Below are positions 33,081 to 63,972 of a DNA stretch of 64,000 nucleotides, piece by piece; the stretch's first letter is position 1; each line of letters opens with the position of its first letter. Position numbers and translations under genes: made by a program. Location: positions 868,001 through 932,000 of the forward strand of contig NZ_QUOK01000001.1 of assembly GCF_003390325.1 (NCBI RefSeq), written 5' to 3'. Under the pieces are notes generated by a model. That model saw nothing but the letters and a program-made list of their open reading frames with translations. It was not told the origin of the DNA and ran no database searches. The stretch is from Rhodohalobacter sp. SW132 (GTDB taxonomy: Bacteria > Bacteroidota > Rhodothermia > Balneolales > Balneolaceae).

Positions 33081-34102
33081 TTACTGTTATTCACGTAAAT
33101 GATGCCGATTTCAGATTAACAGAGTATTACTCAATCGTAATTTTATCTGCATGATAGTTCGGCTTCACAGCTGTTGAATGTAGATGGGCTGGGTGTAGAT
33201 TTTTATCGTCTCTCCGATAATTTCAACACGTATAAACCTGAGTTCGATTTTTAAATTATTTAAAAAAAAGCCCCCCTTAGAAAAGGGCTCCTCTTTTATC
33301 CCGCGCCAACTGGCGTTTTTTCAGTCCCGATTATCAGGGCGAGATTGAGGGGGATTTTCATCAGAATTTGGAAAATAACGATGCCCCCTGTATCTCCCCT
33401 TGTTAGTAATGTCAATAACATTAGCCAATTATGGATTATTCTCCTGATACTTTTGAACGGTCAAAAGTATCCAAAACCCGCCGGGCTGGTGATTCCTTCA
33501 GTCGGGATTTGCGGTACGTTTTGCGATGTAAAAACAAAGGTCCACATCACTTAGTGACAGTAATCTTAGATTTGGCCGGTAGTTTTTACAAGCATCGCAT
33601 GCACTCCCCGCAAACCAAGCACCTCCTTCAGTAATCAAAGGCCGGAAGAACTACAAAATCGACATAAGATCTATTGTGCAAGAGTTTATTAGATTTCGTT
33701 TGCAAGCTAGTTATCATAGTTAGTGGTATTGCCCTTTTTAGGCGCCTTAATACCGAATAAATAAAATTATTTATAAATCGAAATCAGTTATAAAGGTTGC
33801 GTATGAGGGGGGGGTATATATTGTGGGTTCAATTTCGGGTGAGTGGTAGCTGTATCAACACGCCTCCGGCTTGATCCCGGAAAAACAGCGATCATTATAT
33901 ACGATGATGATGATGCGTCTCCCGAATCTGAAATATCTGTATGGCTCGCCGATGTTTCCGCTTGGGAACGGGGAATTTAAGCAAACTGCAAATGCAGAGG
34001 TGATTTTTGAGATTCAGGTTTTTTTGTCGATTTGAACCTGTTCAAGAATCTAAATATTTCACGCAAAAAATCGTGGTTTAAAAAAAGATCTCAGCAGTGA
34101 TC
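33081..34102. other. Long intergenic region with repeats and a coding-like relic
   Basis: About 1 kb without an intact gene. It holds a degenerate C/G-rich repeat (33268-33400, related in style to the CCCCCTT families elsewhere), copy 1 of the structured inverted repeat (33416-33733), and at about 33846-33980 a short open stretch encoding LDPGKTAIIIYDDDDASPES and ending ADVSAWERGI, with a possible GTG start. That stretch looks like a gene fragment, but its source was not recognised. The rest is AT-rich. Confidence 0.55.
33416..33733 (+). repeat. Structured inverted repeat, copy 1
   Basis: The core 33446-33645 (about 200 bp) matches the reverse complement of 40675-40901 with few differences. 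Flanks TTAGC at the left and GTTAGTGGTATTGCC at the right are also shared, while about 70 bp near the right end differ. At the left of the core is a perfect 11-bp hairpin, GATACTTTTGA-ACGG-TCAAAAGTATC (33446-33471). No conserved reading frame is evident in both copies. It could be a non-autonomous mobile element or a structured RNA. Confidence 0.8.
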
Positions 34103-36442: not shown

Positions 36443-36782
36443 GTCCCCCTTTGAGAGGCTGTGAGAAAATTGTTTTCCAAAGAAAATGCACTTAAATAAA
36501 GTAAGATTTCTGCCATTCTCGCGGCTCCCAGACTTTCTGACCCACCCCCGTCCCCTCCCTATCGCGCCCTAACGGGACTTGATAGGGAGGGGAGCTTCAA
36601 CACAAGCTTACACTCCTAAAAAAATAAATAATGCCCACGAATGAGAGTGTAAATTCTCACAGCCTCTCGAAGGGTGTAATGGGGGATGACCTTCCGTGCT
36701 TAAGAACAAAAAATGGACACTTCCGAATACAGAGAGTCATCCCCCTGCTCTCTCCGTTCGCTTTCCCCCTTCGAAGGGGGAC
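36443..36782 (+). repeat. C/G-rich palindromic repeat (family B), copy 1, interrupted
   Basis: Ends are GTCCCCCTTT at the left and AAGGGGGAC at the right, with ATGGGGGATGA and TCATCCCCCTGCTC as inner inverted parts. The related copy at 61235-61371 has the same ends and inner parts without the insertion. Here the left arm is split by the 216-bp element at 36453-36668. This shows an order of events: family B first, then the insertion. Confidence 0.8.
36453..36668. mobile_element. MITE-like element with 15-bp terminal inverted repeats (family A), copy 1
   Basis: Starts GAGAGGCTGTGAGAA and ends with the exact reverse complement TTCTCACAGCCTCTC; 216 bp long with no open reading frame of note. Internally it has the palindrome CCCCTCCCTATCGCGCCCTA-, ACGGGACTTGATAGGGAGGGG. 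The related copy is at 50463-50668 in the opposite orientation. The size, perfect ends and absence of a transposase fit a non-autonomous element. The target duplication is not clear. Confidence 0.82.
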
Positions 36783-40593: not shown

Positions 40594-40930
40594 GCAATAC
40601 CACTAACATTAGTATTTATTCTTTTCTGTTTTTTTACAATGTGACTCATGAACTAATTGTTTGTCAATAATTCACCGGCCTTTGATTACTGAAGGAGGTG
40701 CTTGGTTTGTGGGGAGTGCATGCGATGTTTGTAAAAACTACCGGCCAAATCTAAGATTACTGTAACGAAGTGATGTGGACCTTTGTTTTTACATCGCAAA
40801 ACGAACCGCTAATCCCGACTGAAGGAATCACTAGCCCGGCGGGTTTTGGGTACTGCCGCCTGCCCCGAGCGCTTTTGTCTCGGGGACCGTTCAAAAGTAT
40901 CAAGAAAAAAACTCATAGTTAGCTAATATT
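40594..40930 (-). repeat. Structured inverted repeat, copy 2
   Basis: Reverse complement of the element at 33416-33733. The core 40675-40901 contains about 30 extra bases relative to copy 1, which form a hairpin CCCCGAG-cgcttttgt-CTCGGGG (40863-40885). This copy keeps its own middle segment near 40610-40670, different from that of copy 1. It fills the gap upstream of the first beta-propeller lipoprotein gene. Confidence 0.8.
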
Positions 40931-50462: not shown

Positions 50463-50668
50463 GGGAGGCTGTGAAAAAATACGGAAACAAATTTCGATTC
50501 AGTTAACCTTTTAAGGCAAATAGATTTATGTCGAAGCTCCCCTCCATATCAAGTCCCGTCAGGGCGCGATAGGGAGGGGACGGGAGTGGGTCAGAAAGAC
50601 TGGTAGTGTTGAAATTGACAGAAACCTTAAATTAATTAGGTGCATTTTCTTTGGAAATCTATTTCCTC
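50463..50668. mobile_element. MITE-like element (family A), copy 2, inverted and diverged
   Basis: Matches the element at 36453-36668 in reverse orientation over its whole length, including GTCAGGGCGCGATAGGGAGG and the segment TGCATTTTCTTTGGAAA. The ends are eroded: GGGAGGCTGTGA on the left and only TTTCCTC on the right, so it is older than the perfect copy. Confidence 0.75.
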
Positions 50669-50820
50669 ACCCCCTCTTGAGAGGGGATTTAGGGGTGTGT
50701 TCACCGTAGCCTCGATCAAAACCGGTTTCGCATTTTGGCTCATGTCCCTATCAACACACCCCTCGGTTTGAAAATCTGCGTTCCGCAGTTTTCAAAACCA
50801 TTTCCCCTCTCAAGAGGGGA
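50669..50820. repeat. Palindromic repeat C
   Basis: About 150 bp: ACCCCCTCTTGAGAGGGGAT at the left, TTTCCCCTCTCAAGAGGGGA at the right, with inner pair GGGGTGTGTT / AACACACCCC. Both ends are themselves palindromes (CCCCTCTTGAGAGGGG). It is a hairpin-rich non-coding unit next to MITE copy 2. Confidence 0.7.
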
Positions 50821-60700: not shown

Positions 60701-61436
60701 TTTCGAAGTTCTTTGGTTCTGGTTGATTTAGAAGGTAAGAAAAGGAGTCCCTTTGGTCACATTTATTCTGATTTTAAAACGGGGTGAAATCTCTAATACA
60801 GCTCATATTTTAAGCATATATGTATGTGATTCTTACACTCACTCTCTTATAATCATCGATTTTACCCAAAACACAACACCCATCCCCATTTCAAAATAAG
60901 TATCACACCTTCTCTATCTTCTCTTTTTTGTGAAGAGTTACTTTTTGCCATATCACAACTCCATAACACCCCCCGCCTTCGCCATGCTTCGGCACTCCCC
61001 CTGAAGGGGAGAACTATTCCCAAATCACAATCACCTCTTGAAATATAGCATTTATCATCGCACTCATTAAAAATGATACCCCGCTTTGTGTAAGTAATAG
61101 AAGCAACAATTACTCTCTTTTTTAAAAAGGGGAACTGAGGGGGATTTATTTAATGAACTACCTCGGGGCAGAGCCCGCGAGGTATCAACTAAGAACCCTT
61201 AACTTTTTGGTCGATATGGAGTTTATTCTTGAGTGTCCCCCTTTGGCGGAAGGGGGCAATGGGGGATGATTTGTAGAGTTTTGAGATCCTAAAATGGTTA
61301 TTTATTTGAATCAGCGCCTGTCAATTCATCCCCCTGCTCACTCCGTTCGCCTTCCCCCTTCTAAGGGGGACTTATTTCTCCGACATAAATGACCAGAAAA
61401 TTAAATCATTTAAAGTTCAAATCCGGTAACGCCGAA
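60701..61436. other. Long intergenic region between WYL regulator and rsmG
   Basis: 736 bp with no gene. The right half is repeat-rich: short C/G-rich pieces at 60968-61012 and 61128-61150, then the intact family B repeat (61235-61371). The left half is AT-rich and holds the WYL promoter. No cluster of DnaA boxes was seen, so it is not claimed as the origin. Confidence 0.55.
61235..61371. repeat. C/G-rich palindromic repeat (family B), copy 2, intact
   Basis: GTCCCCCTTTGGCGGAAGGG, then CAATGGGGGATGA ... TTCATCCCCCTGCTCACTCC and TTCCCCCTTCTAAGGGGGAC. It is 137 bp and matches the interrupted copy at 36443-36782. Confidence 0.8.
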
Positions 61437-62075
61437 TTATCTTTCTACTTTCAGCAGCCCTTTGCCGACATAAAATTCTTCGTTCGCGCCAAAATCAAAT
61501 TCAAACAGCGTATACCGAAGCTTCTTTTTTGACTGCGCAATTTCATCAAGCGCACCATCAACTCCCTTCCACATGATGATTGTTTTCCAGGGTTTTGATC
61601 CAAGAAGACGAAGAAGATCATCCACTTTGAATGCATGTTTGGTTACGATTCCGGTCCCCTTTTTTAAATCCACAAGCGAGATGCTTTTTGCAATCACCTC
61701 CGAATTTTCAAGCCCTGTTTTCTCGATGATACCTGAAAGCGCCCTCATCTTTTTCTTCACGTTGTCGTTGAGCAGCCAGTGTTTTTCCGGTGCGCATATA
61801 GCGAGCGGCACCCCGGGCAGTCCGCCCCCGGTCCCGGTATCAATCCAGGAATCATGATCATCAAGTATGCCGAGAACATGTGGAATCAGAGAATGAACGA
61901 CGTGTTCACGAACTGTTTCACGTGAAACACTCCGGCTCACAAGATTTATCTTCTCATTCCAGTCGAGAAGATTGTCGAGGTATTTCTCGAGATGAACTTC
62001 GTTTTTTCGGTATAATTCACGTGCATCTTCCAATGTTTCACGTGAAACAGAATGTTTTTGAATGGATTGTTTCAC
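61437..62075 (-). CDS. rsmG: 16S rRNA (guanine-527-N7)-methyltransferase
   Basis: SAM-dependent methyltransferase of 212 aa that modifies G527 in 16S rRNA. Motif I is WIDTGTGGGLPGVPLAICAP and the N-terminal part has YLDNLLDWNEKINLVSRSVS. The start is a GTG that lies inside a parS-type palindrome. The peptide SVSRET occurs twice (near residues 9 and 48) because two more such palindromes sit in the coding sequence. Follows mnmG on the same strand, with its start 8 bp upstream of the mnmG stop on the map. Confidence 0.95.
   Translation of the reverse strand: MKQSIQKHSVSRETLEDARELYRKNEVHLEKYLDNLLDWNEKINLVSRSVSRETVREHVVHSLIPHVLGILDDHDSWIDTGTGGGLPGVPLAICAPEKHWLLNDNVKKKMRALSGIIEKTGLENSEVIAKSISLVDLKKGTGIVTKHAFKVDDLLRLLGSKPWKTIIMWKGVDGALDEIAQSKKKLRYTLFEFDFGANEEFYVGKGLLKVER
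61914..61929. promoter_or_regulatory. parS site 1 (inside rsmG)
   Basis: TGTTTCACGTGAAACA, an exact match to the widely conserved ParB-binding centromere palindrome. It encodes the SVSRET peptide of RsmG. Confidence 0.92.
62034..62049. promoter_or_regulatory. parS site 2 (inside rsmG, near the start)
   Basis: TGTTTCACGTGAAACA, a second exact palindrome, 120 bp from site 1, again read as SVSRET in RsmG. Confidence 0.92.
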
Positions 62076-62083
62076 GTGAAACC
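62068..62083. promoter_or_regulatory. parS site 3 (rsmG start / mnmG stop)
   Basis: TGTTTCACGTGAAACC, matching the palindrome except for the last base. It contains the GTG start of rsmG, and its last base is the final base of the mnmG stop codon. Confidence 0.85.
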
Positions 62084-63972
62084 TATCGTTTTAAATAAAT
62101 CATGAGAACAGAAAGATCGCTTGCGGACACTCCGCTGATCCTCGACGCTTGCCCGATCGTTTCGGGTTTAATTTTTTCAAGCTTAGAACGGCCTTCTGAA
62201 GAGAGACTTTTTATTCTCTCGTACTGAATATCCATCGGGATAGGCGCCTCCTCTTTCTGTTTAAGTTCTTCTACCATTTCAAATTCACGCTCGATATATC
62301 CGGCATATTTAATCTGTATTTCAACCTGCTCCAATACACGTTCATCGGATGAAATATTTTCTACCTGAGATTTCAACTCTTCATCCGCATCCAAAAGGTG
62401 TTGCAGATGAAGTTCCGGTCGGGGTATTAATGATTTTGCTTTTACAGGCTGACTCAGAACAGATGTTCCCTGCTCTTTAAGCATCGGGTCCATTTTTTCT
62501 GGCCTGACCGTGTAGCTGCTGATCAAATCATACAGGCGATCGATTTCGTCTTTTTTCTTTTCGAACTGAGCAAAACGCTCTTCATCTATCAATCCGAGTT
62601 TACGGCCGAGTGGTGTCAGGCGAAGGTCCGCGTTATCCTGACGTAATAAAATTCGGTGTTCAGCACGCGAGGTAAACATCCGGTACGGCTCTTCTGTCCC
62701 CTTGTTGATCAGGTCATCAATCAGCACCCCGATGTACGCTTCCGAACGTTTTAAAACAAAGGGATCTTCATTATGAACAAATCGGGATGCGTTGATACCC
62801 GCAATTAATCCCTGGCAAGCCGCCTCTTCATACCCGGTAGTTCCGTTAATTTGTCCGGCAAAGAAAAGTCCGTTAACTGCCTTCGTTTCCAGGCTTCTTT
62901 TTACCTGGTATGGCGGAAAATAATCATACTCAATGGCGTAACCCGGCCGGAGCATCACAGCATTTTCAAATCCGGGAATGGTTCGGAGTGCGTGGTACTG
63001 AACATCTTCGGGTAAGGAAGTGGAAAATCCATTCAGATACATCTCATAGGTATCCCACCCTTCCGGTTCCAGAAACAACTGGTGACTGTCTTTATCAGAA
63101 AAACGATCAATCTTATCCTCGATACTCGGGCAATACCTGGGGCCAACAGATTGAATCCGTCCATTAAACATAGGACTTCGATCAAAACCGGTTTTAAGCA
63201 CATCATGTACTTTGGAGTTGGTGTAACCGATCCAGCACGTTAGCTGTTCATCTTTCGATGGGAGTGAATCCGTAGTAAATGAAAATGGATTGGGGTCTTC
63301 ATCCCCGTACTGAATTTCAAGCTGACTGTAGTCAATCGAACGGCCGTCAATTCGGGGTGGTGTTCCGGTTTTTAAGCGCCCGACTTCAAACCCAAGTTTT
63401 TCCAGGGAAGCAGAAATTCCAACGGACGCCCTCTCCCCTGACCGGCCGCCGCCATGCTGACTCTCCCCGATATGAATAAGCCCATTCAAAAACGTACCGC
63501 TTGTAAGAACTACGGAAGATGCCTCAAACGTCTGGCCGGTTTGCGTAACCACGCCGGTAACCTTATCCCCCGAACTGTTAGTGAGAATATCCACAACATT
63601 ATCCTGGCGAAAATGAAGATGATCAATCTGTTCAAGCTGACTTCTCATCAGTTTAGAGTAGAGAGAGCGGTCGCTTTGGCAGCGCGGACTCCACATTGCC
63701 GGACCCTTACTCAAATTCAGCATCCGAAACTGCACCCCGCTTTGATCGCTAACAATGCCGCTCAATCCGCCAAGTGCATCAATCTCACGCACAAGCTGAC
63801 CTTTGGCAACCCCACCCATAGCCGGGTTGCAGGACATCTTGGCAATGGCATCCAGGTTCATTGTAATTAGCAACGTTTTAGCACCGCTTTTTGCAGATGC
63901 GGCCGCAGCCTCACTGCCGGCATGGCCCGCACCCACTACAATAACATCGTAGGCGGGATATAAACTACTCAT
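62083..63972 (-). CDS. mnmG: tRNA uridine-5-carboxymethylaminomethyl modification enzyme, large subunit
   Basis: FAD-dependent enzyme of 629 aa that, with MnmE, modifies the wobble uridine of tRNAs. The FAD motif is [18 protein letters not shown], followed by [20 protein letters not shown] and [20 protein letters not shown]. The C-terminal GidA-associated domain ends with [10 protein letters not shown]. The length is normal. The ATG at 63972 is 28 bases from the window end. Lies directly upstream of rsmG in the transcript; this pair near gyrase genes and parS sites is typical of origin-proximal regions. Confidence 0.97.

Follow-up and report, generated by a model that had tools for sequence, protein, structure and literature searches.

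A palindrome-targeting MITE family in Rhodohalobacter sp. SW132, very probably mobilised by IS1182

The window analysed here is a stretch of 64,000 nucleotides (G000:C1:868001-932000) from the 5.08-Mb, 45-contig draft genome of Rhodohalobacter sp. SW132. It contains a 212-bp MITE, A1, lying within a second repeat, B (GTCCCCCTT...AAGGGGGAC, 36443-36782), whose left arm it breaks, and a form of B that carries no MITE (Table 1). Both the interruption and the uninterrupted form had been described in an original prediction for this locus and are borne out, so that filled and empty B sites do occur within one genome. No open reading frame of at least 100 aa overlaps the window copy of A1, and no Rfam match was obtained in the window at gathering scores. 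When A1 and its flanks are folded as single-stranded DNA, the terminal stem comprises some 21 bp and the complete fold has a z of -5.5. Elsewhere in the window, two 180-nt stretches 7 kb apart (33466-33645 and 40675-40854) form an inverted repeat pair that is 96% complementary and has no Rfam match. The sequence TGTTTCACGTGAAAC, a putative parS-like site, occurs in three stretches (61914-61938, 62034-62058 and 62068-62092) adjoining two minus-strand open reading frames (61437-62075 and 62083-63972).

Table 1. Positions of MITE A1, repeat B and their parts within the window
Feature	Position	Strand	Remarks
Repeat B hairpin, outer left arm	36443..36450	+	cut off from its partner by the MITE
Left 4-bp target copy	36451..36454	+	TTGA
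MITE A1	36455..36666	+	212 bp; TIR GAGGCTGTGAGAA/TTCTCACAGCCTC
Core hairpin (inner palindrome) of MITE A1	36551..36593	+	
Right 4-bp target copy	36667..36670	+	TCGA, one base off the left copy
Remainder of repeat B	36671..36782	+	left arm partner, interior and right hairpin CCCCCTTCGAAGGGGGAC
Second MITE A1 copy	50465..50676	-	inverted, diverged (24.5% from consensus)
Repeat B without MITE	61235..61371	+	paralogous empty site

Comparison of many copies places the ends of A1 at a perfect 13-bp TIR whose outermost bases are GAGGCTG. Ends of 15 bp (GAGAGGCTGTGAGAA...TTCTCACAGCCTCTC, 36453-36668) had been proposed; those letters are exact, and we shorten the element end to 13 bp because the outermost two bases are part of the 4-bp target copies. 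The inverted, diverged copy predicted at 50463-50668 is likewise present, with its ends corrected to those in Table 1. Between the window copy and the family consensus, 10 of 212 positions differ (4.7%), a distance typical of the family, and the two target copies of the window element are one base apart; the suggestion that its insertion was recent is not supported by these values.

Repeat B has 45 matches in the genome. Its left arm could be anchored upstream at 13 of 30 B loci and is intact at 11 of these 13, while one of the remaining two holds A1 and the other a different short insertion. Starting from the flanks of A, four A1-bearing copies of B were found (the window copy, L007, L011 and L017), two in each orientation. 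The original prediction had named one circumstance under which A1 would not be an insertion, namely that the inner part is an ancestral component of B, the form at 61235 then being a deletion derivative. That A1 occupies the same position in all four B copies speaks for such an ancestry, whereas the presence of target copies, the location of most of the 43 curated copies of A outside B, the preponderance of uninterrupted B arms and the two orientations of A all speak against it. We regard it as very improbable, and reject it on the opposite orientations and the empty B copies. A1 is therefore an insertion, and its opposite orientations in the four B copies indicate that these insertions were independent. 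B copies match one another less well than A copies do, which is in line with the proposed age order, B being older than A; the identification of a MITE nested in an older repeat is supported. At the orthologous site of two congeners, alignments leave gaps of 153 bp (G001) and 35 bp (G002), and of about 460 bp here; on reading, neither A nor B is present in the gap of either congener. The original prediction missed that A1's place in B exemplifies a general palindrome preference.

The genome-wide search that had been proposed for both families returned, besides the matches to B, 41 BLAST matches to A1. With up to one mismatch allowed, the 13-bp end occurs at 68 sites in the genome and the reversed control pattern at none, a count far beyond chance. 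Three subfamilies carry these same ends around different cores. Besides the 212-bp A1, they comprise a shorter form of some 190 bp, with 30 matches, and a third of 162-169 bp, with 9. Of the 41 matches to A1, nine cover the core only (query 72-147), as do several matches to the ~190-bp form (about 39-141), and the cores therefore seem to be dispersed repeats in their own right; at single matches, decayed ends are possible. In an alignment of 22 A1-like copies, divergence from the consensus is at most 9.0% in 16 and 10.5-34.1% in the other 6; left out of it are L029, L087 and L138, which have the right length and low word sharing.

We curated 43 insertions in this genome, 41 of them 162-233 bp long and two being composites of 349 and 352 bp. 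They were drawn from 64 candidate end pairs, 21 of which were dropped by eye as secondary pairings, most having a 4-mismatch end or re-using an end that another pair had claimed. Truncated copies, among them L015, L020, L024, L028 and L030, stand outside all counts. In relatives, nine pairs were kept by eye, to the exclusion of pairs whose length did not fit or whose ends were unclear; three complete copies in G002 (L257-L259, with tetramers TTGA/TCGA, ATTA/ATTA and TCGA/TCGA) enter no count. In this genome, 39 of the 43 copies have no open reading frame of at least 100 aa crossing either element boundary, and at L017, L078, L086 and L133 a frame of 107-135 aa crosses one boundary; the comparison covers open reading frames only, and seven loci have less than 400 bp of flank on one side. 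Most insertion sites therefore look intergenic. The family thus described is short, has TIRs, many dispersed copies and a target duplication and, judged on the window copy, is non-coding, as bacterial MITEs are. Two 233-bp A1 copies in opposite orientations (L016 and L017) have in common an extra piece of about 21 nt inside the core hairpin, so this variant form may itself have transposed. At L014 (G000:C3:122831-123182), copies of two subfamilies adjoin one another in the 352-bp composite.

The target duplication, which the original prediction had left to be defined from filled and empty sites, is 4 bp long in the compared copies. Exact direct copies of 4 bp flank 13 of the 43 insertions, against 5.3 with permuted flanks (1 of 2000 shuffles reaches 13). 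When self-complementary tetramers are excluded, 8 of 43 remain, against 1.4 (0 of 2000), and among the 43 insertions no comparable signal was obtained at 2, 3, 5, 6 or 7 bp. The copies are inexact at the other 30 sites, differing by one base in 17 and by two or more in 13. The tetramers vary (TCGA, TCAA, AATA, GTTA, AAAA, TCTA and TAGA are represented), and the last base of the left tetramer is a nearly constant A. Exact inverted tetramers occur at 3 of 52 sites (L128, L143 and L148), against 2.6 with permuted flanks, which is no excess; they could reflect chance, later correction of the palindrome or a loop replacement of the kind described for IS1272.

Both the 43 insertions in this genome and the 9 in relatives sit on or close to the axis of palindromes that are rich in GC and have the form CCCCT...AGGGG. 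At zero shift, at least 6 of 10 arm positions pair at 18 of 43 sites, compared with 2.1% of random positions in the same loci. When the best shift of up to 3 bases is allowed, at least 7 arm positions pair at 15 of 43 sites (3.0% at random), the chosen shift being zero in 16 of the 43 and 1-3 bases in the remaining 27. A run of C/T followed by a run of A/G surrounds 34 of 43 sites (4.7% at random). Genome-wide, 83 occurrences of the strict form CCCCTT-N0-10-AAGGGG compare with one of the reversed control, and 7 of the 43 joined empty sites conform to it; a few sites, such as L009, L021 and L023, have no clear palindrome.

These palindromes might be recognised as structures or as sequences. Permuting the right flanks barely lowers arm pairing, from 4.98 to 4.77 at zero shift (163 of 1000 shuffles reach the observed value, not significant) and from 6.26 to 6.07 at the best shift (128 of 1000), so that in this genome a preference for the sequence CCCCT-N-AGGGG explains the targets as well as structure does. 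It is accordingly quite possible, if somewhat short of an even chance, that the transposase reads the primary sequence CCCCT-TYGA-AGGGG and strikes palindromes as its commonest carriers, a reading with which the near-constant A also agrees. The variety of the target tetramers argues against it, as does a test of exact 6-bp inverted matches beside the element: these occur at 7 of 52 sites once relatives are added, against 2.0 with permuted flanks (1 of 2000), in a pool of genomes that differ in their repeats, and at 3 of 43 sites, against 1.8 and not significant, in the genome of SW132 alone. Some other IS1182 elements, moreover, lie in unrelated palindromes (L172, L174 and L175, among ten loci judged by eye).

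A transposase for family A was sought through its ends. The original prediction had called for an autonomous transposase with the same ends; TIR pairing and searches with the IS1182 model NF033551 recovered none in the draft assembly of SW132, no two of its 68 end sites form a pair 1-3 kb apart, and its only trace of IS1182 is a remnant with other ends (2 matches at C7:225558-225969, below the cut-off). Among 92 genomes of the family, which include Fodinibius halophilus 2W32 (G065) and the Balneolaceae MAG MES10 (G021), the exact end is present in 21, and NF033551 has matches in 24, in 7 of them above the cut-off. F. halophilus has an end some 60 bp away from an IS1182 transposase frame of 360 aa, which extends to the edge of its contig (L164, identical with L200); the match to NF033551 is partial (E 1.8e-72, 244.8 bits) and falls below the 270-bit full-length cut-off, and the frame matches Pfam PF13751/PF01609. 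Its flanks can be paired as TCCA/TCCA or in inverted fashion. In MES10, an end lies beside the C-terminal part of a transposase (E 1.9e-15; L152, identical with L202), and in G093 a decayed copy has its end near an IS1182 match with stops. Of the matching IS copies fetched, these three alone have a transposase close to the end. The copies fetched from relatives stop at contig breaks, and an IS complete with both ends was not obtained; ends in G003 likewise lie at contig breaks. The sharing of ends between family A and an IS1182 element was thus found through G065 and G021, in both of which the IS breaks off at the contig end. A search of viral contigs with one protein query, suited to close relatives only, gave no relatives of the transposase, and four stretches there that match a pattern encode none.

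The MITEs and the IS1182-bearing ends of relatives have a bipartite end in common, GAGGCTGTGAGAAAAT-N7-CAA. Of 104 MITE ends, 67 have CAA starting at position 24, as do 12 of 13 IS-type ends; at other positions within 16-33 it starts in at most 9 MITE ends and at most 3 IS-type ends. A later, overlapping set of 29 IS-type ends, most so classed from a contig break inside the element and without a transposase in view, has CAA in 24, and 28 of the 29 have a C/T-run arm outside the end, compared with 10.7% of random positions. Together with the 4-bp duplication, these comparisons lead us to consider it likely that the MITEs of family A are non-autonomous and depend for their movement on a DDE transposase of the IS1182 family, acting in trans. 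Mobilisation by a transposase of another family, for example IS5 or RAYT, with the end shared by convergence or hitchhiking, seems improbable. The IS1182 fragment does match IS5-type models weakly as well, and the genome has six Y1_Tnp matches; yet the bipartite end is common to IS1182-bearing ends, and TIRs with a 4-bp duplication are foreign to the Y1 mode of transposition. The palindrome CCCCTT/AAGGGG, looked for as a sign of RAYT activity on B, was absent from the flanks fetched for all six Y1 loci, and RAYT is rejected on this ground as a mover of A or B.

Ten loci of IS1182 elements with other ends, examined by eye and without a control, fit a picture of the family in which 4 bp are duplicated and targets are palindromic. 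L172, L174 and L175 have palindromic flanks; ATTA stands on both sides of L194, neither palindrome nor repeat is clear in L171 and L173, and L197 has no ends. L176, L177 and L178 belong to a further IS1182 lineage whose ends approximate GAGTCTGTCGG; L176 and L178 have CTAG on either side, and L177 has CTAT and CTAG.

Mobilisation by IS1182 may be pictured as follows. The transposase would bind the bipartite end and join the element across the axial bases of the palindrome with a stagger of 4 bp; in a palindrome extruded as a cruciform, these bases would make up the loop. The inserted element would then be flanked by the target stem, which could pair together with the TIRs as one stem, so the hairpin would be lengthened and not destroyed. 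We propose, tentatively and at some remove from probability, that the transposase recognises the extruded cruciform itself and joins the ends across its 4-nt loop, duplicating the loop while the stem is kept and lengthened by the TIRs. Because no transposase bearing these ends was found in the assembly, the A copies of this genome are probably stranded, or dependent on an IS that is unassembled or lost.

Among the described elements closest to A is MITEPye1 of Paracoccus yeei, found with ISPye18 (PMC11578231), a non-coding element of 159 bp with 18-bp IS1182-type TIRs and 4-bp direct repeats, intergenic, predicted to form a long stem-loop and present in 1-3 copies per chromosome. It resembles A in its coding status, type of TIR, direct repeats, intergenic location and stem-loop, a likeness by description and not by end sequences; it differs in copy number, and a palindromic target goes unmentioned in the relevant passages of PMC11578231. 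ISPse1, an autonomous IS1182-family element of 1653 bp with 16-bp ends (PMC3281130), has 4-bp direct repeats like A; unlike A it is autonomous, and the passages of PMC3281130 that describe it state no palindrome targeting.

Hairpin targeting is known in the IS1182 family. IS1272 and TnSha1 of staphylococci are described as inserting into inverted repeats or hairpins, several of them terminators, without a sequence consensus, the stem-loop being wholly or partly deleted and no target duplication arising (PMC5678879, PMC4923244); a review by Siguier and colleagues, as cited in both articles, has some IS1182 members targeting palindromes. A resembles these elements in its IS1182 type and hairpin targets. 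It differs in duplicating 4 bp at the axis and retaining the stem; its direct 4-bp copies and preserved stems are not those of a stem-loop replacement, and resemble 'pathway c', the loop duplication drawn for IS1272 as a possible branch (PMC5678879). Insertion into repetitive extragenic palindromes also links A to the REP-targeting elements IS1397, ISKpn1, ISRm22 and ISPsy8, of which ISRm22 lies at the axis of palindromy (PMC1525189). These are, in contrast to A, autonomous, with other duplication sizes, and the families named for them in that account are IS3, IS110, IS4, IS256 and IS5, not IS1182. What PMC9769881, PMC3733652 and PMC2817692 describe in the parts concerned has little bearing on A. 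No publication on family A was found in the open-access literature, judged mostly from listings.

Family A is very probably best read, from its ends and targets, as a palindrome-targeting MITE mobilised by IS1182. Well sampled, it clearly belongs to a known kind, MITEs with IS1182-type ends and 4-bp repeats and hairpin-targeting IS1182 elements having already been published; what it adds is a high-copy series and a duplication in place of stem-loop deletion. More than 40 insertions in one genome, all with one transposon end and accompanied by paralogous and orthologous empty sites, provide a natural test series for palindrome targeting by IS1182, and they show a 4-bp duplication at palindrome axes, whereas the best-studied IS1182 member deletes its target. 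If the transposase does recognise the extruded cruciform, the element could spread through terminator- or REP-type hairpins as through safe havens, leaving each hairpin intact, and the MITE subfamilies would have acquired their palindromic cores as captured targets.
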